Under the pieces are notes generated by a model, which saw only the letters and a program-made list of their open reading frames with translations, was not told the origin of the DNA and did no database searches. Position numbers and translations under genes: made by a program. Of a DNA stretch of 64,000 nucleotides, positions 50,693 to 51,705 are shown piece by piece (position 1 is the first letter of the stretch; each line of letters opens with the position of its first letter). Origin of the DNA: Plebeiibacterium marinum (lineage in GTDB: Bacteria > Bacteroidota > Bacteroidia > Bacteroidales > Marinilabiliaceae); the NCBI RefSeq assembly GCF_026013615.1, contig NZ_JAPDPI010000002.1, positions 1 to 64,000 of the forward strand, in the 5' to 3' direction.

Positions 50693-50817
50693 GATTAAGT
50701 CTTTTTTATTTAATGATACCCAACTTTGTGCTCATAAGATACGGATAGTTTTATAAAATTGTTGTCTTCTGCTCCCAAAAAAATTTTATGTTCATCATGT
50801 CCCAAAAATGAAAAATA

Positions 50818-50871
50818 CCGGAAAAACAAAGTCTGACGACTTATATTTCCCGGCATCAATCAACACAACAC
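50818..50871. repeat. Hairpin element A with ATCAATCAACACAACAC tail
   Basis: CCGGAAAAACAAAGTC TGAC GACTTATATTTCCCGG then CATCAATCAACACAACAC. Confidence 0.8.
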
Positions 50872-50899
50872 AATCTTTAATATTTTAATTTGAAAAACA

Positions 50900-50959
50900 C
50901 CGAGAGTTACATTTGTGGGGACAAATATTCGCAACTCCCGGCATCAATCAACACAACAC
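50900..50959. repeat. Hairpin element B with ATCAATCAACACAACAC tail
   Basis: CCGAGAGTTACATTTGT GGGG ACAAATATTCGCAACTCCCGG then CATCAATCAACACAACAC. Confidence 0.85.
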
Positions 50960-51074
50960 TCTAAAATTTTCCGCTAAAATAGTTTTTTAAAATTATCATT
51001 GATAATAAATCAAACAATAATATCTAAAAATCCAGATACTTTATTACTATACTATACTTGTGAAGGCTTAATTT

Positions 51075-51132
51075 GCCGGAAGCTGCTTCTGTGGGGACAT
51101 AACGCGAGCTTCCGGCTTTATCAACACAACAC
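51075..51132. repeat. Hairpin element C with ATCAACACAACAC tail
   Basis: GCCGGAAGCT GCTTCTGTGGGGACATAACGCG AGCTTCCGGC then TTTATCAACACAACAC; outer stem is a perfect 10 bp. Confidence 0.85.
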
Positions 51133-51138
51133 TATTTT

Positions 51139-51483
51139 TTACGCCATCAACAAATCAGATGAAAATGGCTTAGGAATATCACAAAAGAAAAACAGATGGT
51201 CAACCTTGGCAGAACGAAGCATCTTAAACACTTTTTCCTTGACATTAAATAAACTAACCTGCCCCTTATTCATTTCCGACAATCTTTGTCCGGCTATAAG
51301 AGCATCAATGGTAGCTGCACTAATTTCATTTACCTGAGCAAAATCAACCATTATATTAGAAAACGGATGGGTTAACTTTTGAATAAGTTCATTTTTGAAC
51401 TCCACAGAATCTATTGACTCTTTATTTCTGGCCTCATCGAAAGACACCAATACTGTATTTTGGTAAGTTTTAATCTTAATCAT
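51139..51483 (-). CDS. STAS-like (anti-sigma-factor-antagonist-type) domain protein
   Basis: IMVDFAQVNEISAATIDALIAGQRLSEMNKGQVSLFNVKEKVFKMLRSAKVDHLF; start at MIKIKTYQN. Confidence 0.7.
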   Translation of the reverse strand: MIKIKTYQNTVLVSFDEARNKESIDSVEFKNELIQKLTHPFSNIMVDFAQVNEISAATIDALIAGQRLSEMNKGQVSLFNVKEKVFKMLRSAKVDHLFFFCDIPKPFSSDLLMA

Positions 51484-51705
51484 AAACTTGCGTGTTTGTG
51501 TTTCGAACCACAAATACCAAAGCCCATGCCACTTTTTCACACACACTGATTTTCAACACATTAACTTCACAACACTTTAAATTATTGCTGTTTTTTGGAA
51601 TTTATTCCATAATATGGATTTTGTTCATTATATGTAATTACTATAAACAATACGCTATTTTTAGCACAAAAAAACGCGCAACAACGCCTTAAAAACACCA
51701 AAGAA

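Follow-up and report, generated by a model that had tools for sequence, protein, structure and literature searches.

Three tandem hairpin units downstream of a STAS-domain gene in Plebeiibacterium marinum, predicted sibling small RNAs directed at a surface-adhesin mRNA

Locus and Unit Architecture

The window, a stretch of 64,000 nucleotides from Plebeiibacterium marinum (contig NZ_JAPDPI010000002.1, positions 1 to 64,000), contains a gap of about 446 bp between a STAS-domain gene and a Usp gene, and this gap is occupied by three hairpin units. The three units, the gap length, and the tail-to-tail spacing of 88 and 173 bp were all found as described in the initial annotation. Read on the + strand, the common tail ATCAACACAACAC was exact at 50859-50871, 50947-50959, and 51120-51132. 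The three-unit pattern is real and well beyond chance. On the minus strand, each unit opens with an unpaired 5' leader, GUGUUGUGUUGAU(UGAU); a covarying hairpin comes next, and a U-rich tail closes the unit. Unit 1 begins about 7 nt after the STAS stop codon. The features of the locus are as follows.

51517..51531, minus strand: sigma-54-like promoter TGGCATGGGCTTTGG upstream of the STAS gene, by consensus resemblance only
51139..51483, minus strand: STAS-domain gene of 114 aa (Pfam STAS, E 8.5e-5), host of the array
51066..51132, minus strand: predicted sRNA unit 1 (C in the initial annotation), with leader GTGTTGTGTTGAT and a CCCC-loop hairpin
51120..51132, minus strand: predicted seed of unit 1, GUGUUGUGUUGAU, invariant leader with adhesin complementarity
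50974..50981, minus strand: putative -7 promoter box of unit 2, TATTTTAG, a TAnnTTWG match
50890..50959, minus strand: predicted sRNA unit 2 (formerly B), with leader GTGTTGTGTTGATTGAT, a CCCC-loop hairpin, and tail GTGTTTTTC
50943..50959, minus strand: predicted seed of unit 2, GUGUUGUGUUGAUUGAU, including the invariant leader, with adhesin complementarity
50808..50871, minus strand: predicted sRNA unit 3 (formerly A), with leader GTGTTGTGTTGATTGAT, a hairpin without the C-rich loop, and tail TATTTTTC
50855..50871, minus strand: predicted seed of unit 3, GUGUUGUGUUGAUUGAU, including the invariant leader, with adhesin complementarity

The covariance model R1 recovered unit 2 with the highest score (80.1 bits, E 4e-20), followed by unit 3 (59.8 bits, E 1e-14) and unit 1 (43.5 bits, E 4e-10). 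The spacers between units (L009, L011, L012, and L013) showed short inverted repeats of varied sequence when read by eye, such as GCTGTCA/TGACAGC in L009.

Distribution of the Array

A DNA search of 61 genomes detected the array in six other members of the genus, giving 22 units in seven genomes, with three units per genome and four in G004. All seven array genomes belong to one GTDB genus (Labilibacter, Plebeiobacterium, Saccharicrinis), and a collection scan matched Plebeiobacterium sediminum, Labilibacter marinus, Labilibacter sediminis, and a Saccharicrinis MAG. A covariance search of the kind proposed in the initial annotation was run over 71 genomes of the family, and convincing copies appeared inside the genus only. 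In G001 and G002 of the same genus, the array, the STAS gene, and the adhesin gene discussed below were absent together. At the gathering and E-value thresholds of Rfam no family was assigned to the units; matches to GibS, FopS, the hairpin ribozyme, and miRNA were at chance level.

The tail 13-mer had also been proposed for a genome-wide search. In the 5.6 Mb genome of the window it gave a single extra exact copy (L001, 1501-1513), which is non-coding and lies without a hairpin and without an adjoining gene start. This bears on the suggestion of REP/RAYT-type mobile palindromic elements, which the tandem CCGG-bounded palindromes with a common tail do resemble. Dispersed copies were absent from all seven array genomes, each of which holds one array strictly after STAS, and the stem differences are compensatory, as in RNA. 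The copy distribution in the seven genomes contradicts a mobile element, and we give this reading practically no chance.

In the seven genomes, the STAS stop codon and the array start were never more than about 10 nt apart. The next gene past the array in G006, which we take from reading by eye to be tryptophanyl-tRNA synthetase, is not Usp; the array therefore belongs to STAS. The placement between STAS and Usp was thus correct as a location, while the suggested tie to Usp as its leader or attenuator had to be given up.

Strand, Folding, and Covariation

The minus-strand folds of the window's units were more stable than those of shuffled sequences, with −23.9 kcal/mol (z −3.9) for unit 1, −26.3 kcal/mol (z −4.5) for unit 2, and −22.3 kcal/mol (z −5.4) for unit 3. 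Over the 22 units, 51 G.U pairs on the minus strand would be A.C mismatches on the + strand, which identifies the minus strand as the RNA strand. The minus strand also gave the more stable fold in 18 of 22 units, and the 3' tails consist of 62% U. The tail reported on the + strand therefore exists as sequence, but its direction is reversed: on the minus strand it becomes a 5' seed, and the + strand version is a likeness of the target mRNA. The leader GTGTTGTGTTGA was identical in all 22 units.

The covarying stems noticed earlier in the single window held over the seven related genomes. In the MAFFT alignment, double-sided changes were observed at 11 of 21 pairs, with a covariation score of 0.282 compared with 0.09-0.13 for slid structures. 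The model-fitted alignment, which is biased toward the structure, gave 15 of 21 pairs and a score of 0.336.

The apical loop 'TGTGGGGACA' had been described as common to B and C. It is present in these two of the three units, but as the transcribed strand is the minus strand, it is really the C-rich loop UGUCCCCACA, which is missing in the last unit. C-rich motifs are associated with csRNA and LhrC, and the loop of the array recalls them. The CCCC loop kept in units 1 and 2 might function as a second seed. The repeated hairpins with a conserved loop had also suggested a protein-binding decoy, which might titrate a CsrA/Rsm-like protein. The proposed GGGGA motif sits on the non-transcribed strand, so that the RNA loop reads CCCC and is gone from the last unit, and the most conserved part of the unit is the leader rather than the loop. 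A decoy RNA is accordingly very improbable, slightly more so than the autoregulation of STAS considered below.

Putative Promoters and Probable Origin of the Array

STAS orthologs were found in 27 of the 71 family genomes, and nearly all 27 carried a sigma-54-like TGGCA(C/T)-N5-TTG-like motif upstream. The sprB operon of F. psychrophilum also has a sigma-54 promoter (PMC9723704). A second type of promoter motif was detected inside the array. The -7 box of Bacteroidota is TAnnTTTG (PMC7366714), and a TAnnTTWG box was located 21-24 nt before the leader of the middle unit (the third of four in G004) in 7/7 genomes, a count that, like the other 7/7 counts, is not independent because these genomes are related. 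The chance of such a box is about 0.01 per spacer. A TTG followed 22-24 nt farther upstream in five of the seven genomes. No such box was found for units 1 and 3, which may therefore be supplied by the STAS transcript and by read-through.

Most of the inspected STAS orthologs of other genera end in a single ordinary terminator hairpin, e.g., ACCGGGAGAAAACGTTCTCCCGGTTTTTTT, and the array therefore probably derived from the STAS terminator by duplication. A pattern scan for a GC stem with a T-run found no canonical terminator in the window, and the tails were U-rich in relatives. The same observations, the single hairpin of other genera and the U-rich tails of the array, would fit units that are still 3'-UTR terminators, with the leader as a processing or protein-binding site and without any trans target. 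Terminators, however, need no invariant 13-nt leader, no three or four copies, and no internal promoter. We consider this reading unlikely, although it is the strongest of the alternatives.

Complementarity to the Adhesin mRNA

Each array-bearing genome was scanned for the complement of the leader with one mismatch allowed. The exact 13-mer complement was present in five array genomes and a one-mismatch form in the other two, all in the same adhesin gene. The adhesin has 1,648 aa in the window's genome and about 1,500-1,690 aa across the array genomes, with several PKD domains and a type IX secretion C-terminal domain (CHU_C), and in the window's genome it is followed by a PorP/SprF gene (porP/sprF). 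Its start is an unusual GTG, which at best continues with ATC AAT CAA CAC AAC AC, the complement of the entire 17-nt leader GUGUUGUGUUGAUUGAU. The window's own genome has a 12-nt match (TCAACACAACAC). Leader complementarity covered codons 2-7 of the adhesin in 7/7 array genomes.

The longest perfect run was 12-17 nt in the seven array genomes and at most 8 nt in 23 array-less orthologs, which have different starts, often MDGKKK-like. The duplex energies of the two groups did not overlap (−19.3 to −26.5 kcal/mol with the array, −4.7 to −15.8 kcal/mol without it), and the difference over the 30 orthologs was significant when relatedness was ignored (Mann-Whitney p 4e-5). Inside the site, the three invariant codons CAA CAC AAC (Q-H-N) showed no synonymous change in the seven genomes, whereas farther downstream only 3 of 57 invariant residues kept one codon. 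This codon constancy points to a constraint on the RNA sequence. Terminators would need neither a conserved C-rich loop nor a perfect start-codon complement in the same seven genomes. When each of the 22 units was cofolded with the adhesin mRNA of its genome, the leader paired through nucleotides 1 to 11-17, at +3..+19 or at −30..−15, the latter being a second pairing site. Both STAS and the adhesin occurred in 26 of the 71 family genomes, STAS only in one, the adhesin only in 17, and neither in 27 (Fisher p 7e-7, phylogeny ignored).

The 5' leader of STAS (51484-51510) contains ACACAAACACRC just before the start codon in all seven array genomes, and the seed could pair with it across one bulged A. 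The resulting duplex (−11.3 to −16.8 kcal/mol) was mostly weaker in other genera, as would be expected if the array regulated its own host gene in cis. The bulged A is always present, however, the fractions of shuffled sequences were 0.01-0.17, and homologous AC-rich sequence is also found in array-less genera. Autoregulation as the main role is improbable; the STAS leader may be a secondary target.

Further Candidate Targets

The second candidate target, a T9SS type A protein, combines a galactose-binding-like domain with a type A sorting domain. In most array genomes, tandem CAACACAAC-type sites lie right before the ATG of its gene; G004 has a single 11-nt run. The array-less genome G002 keeps this complement (L306) despite the absence of the array, STAS, and the adhesin, which weakens the candidate unless the array was lost there recently; the kept complement may reflect such a loss. 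Nearly all array genomes have TGGGG(A), a complement of the C-rich loop in units 1 and 2, about 30 nt into the type A coding region (L304-L311). As a sign of a second seed it was given little weight, since a Trp-Gly dipeptide forces most of TGGGGA. The third candidate, found in G000 and G007, is an SprB-repeat protein, and the fourth is a transglycosylase/LysM protein that was strong only in G003 and G006.

A genome-wide count of TCAACACAA before ATG showed no enrichment, with array-bearing and array-less genomes alike. A large regulon read from this motif was therefore rejected, and the number of regulated genes is probably low. When 631 start regions sampled from the window's genome were ranked, the adhesin came second, ahead of the type A protein in third place. 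The true seed gave only slightly more strong sites than shuffled seeds did, and this excess is inflated by the choice of the sample, which includes contigs picked for holding candidates. The best duplex of the 631 was with a 211-aa protein (L267, 175-807, + strand), which has TTCAACACAACAC 24 nt before its ATG, a likely membrane segment, and no Pfam family.

Proposed Mechanism

The array has a defined strand, a covarying hairpin, an invariant seed, a promoter box for unit 2, complementarity linked to its presence, and a codon constraint at its target. An accessible seed and conserved complementarity at the translation start of a target are the marks of sibling sRNAs, and both were found here. 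In our judgement the locus probably encodes three tandem sibling trans-acting sRNAs on the minus strand that would block translation of surface adhesins, the small-RNA array being the one among the initially listed possibilities that the results support. The predicted sRNAs would each be about 65-75 nt long. The seed GUGUUGUGUUGAU(UGAU) would pair with AUCAAUCAACACAACAC in the start-codon region of the PKD adhesin mRNA, and probably also with the leaders of the T9SS type A and SprB-repeat proteins. A duplex over the start region would block ribosome loading, and production of the surface proteins would be lowered. Start-region pairing has been shown to prevent ribosome loading for FopS on SusC mRNAs (PMC11697453). 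From the sequence we infer that the units are transcribed and that units 1 and 3 are processed. Repression appears the likelier direction, with activation by unfolding as the alternative.

A wider scheme can be proposed tentatively. The array could be a genus-specific module in which unit 1 lies in the 3' UTR of a sigma-54-type STAS transcript and units 2 and 3 are transcribed from a vegetative promoter. The amount of a common seed, and with it the silencing of type IX-secreted adhesins (PKD/SprF, type A, and SprB-repeat), would then respond to two inputs, the CCCC loop would act as a second seed, and the module would have arisen by duplication of the STAS terminator and gain of the adhesin site. 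We regard this complete scheme as possible, with the odds somewhat against it.

Comparison with Known sRNAs

The closest analogue is FopS of Bacteroides (Rfam RF04319), which is also about 65-70 nt long, with a single-stranded 5' seed followed by a terminator hairpin, multicopy siblings, a canonical Bacteroidota promoter, and a seed directed near the start codons of surface-protein mRNAs (PMC11697453). The units share this architecture of 5' single-stranded seed, hairpin, and U-tract by analogy and not by membership, and the FopS model scored them at 17.8 bits, below the cut-off of 56. FopS is a dispersed 14-member family with SusC mRNAs as targets and another seed (PMC11697453), whereas the array is a single tandem cluster after STAS in one genus with T9SS adhesin targets.

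NgncR_162/163 of Neisseria are likewise near-identical siblings with a common seed that block ribosome binding on the same targets, but they differ in phylum, sequence, structure, and metabolic targets, and their seeds lie in a stem-loop and linker instead of a 5' leader (PMC9973317). The streptococcal csRNAs are several similar small non-coding RNAs with one common target; they are five RNAs under CiaR, with another sequence and another target (PMC4507080). Rfp18 of Flavobacterium psychrophilum is a Bacteroidota sRNA with predicted pairing to mRNAs of secreted proteases and an adhesin, but it is one conserved sRNA that pairs via its third stem-loop, and its deletion lowers the target mRNA (PMC9723704). 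A search of the openly licensed PMC literature for an sRNA near a STAS domain in Bacteroidetes, or for a small RNA in Marinilabiliaceae, returned nothing relevant. Because they differ in sequence, arrangement, and targets and are not matched by the FopS model, the units are not members of FopS and would form a new family of tandem sibling sRNAs.

To our knowledge, outside Bacteroides only a small number of Bacteroidota sRNAs have been assigned defined targets. The array offers a concrete predicted target and a 12-17-bp interaction conserved together with it, which is testable in cultured strains, and it can plausibly be linked to type IX secretion and gliding-type adhesins. It also suggests a route for the birth of sibling sRNAs, in which a duplicated terminator would gain a seed and an adhesin of the same lineage would gain the matching start region.
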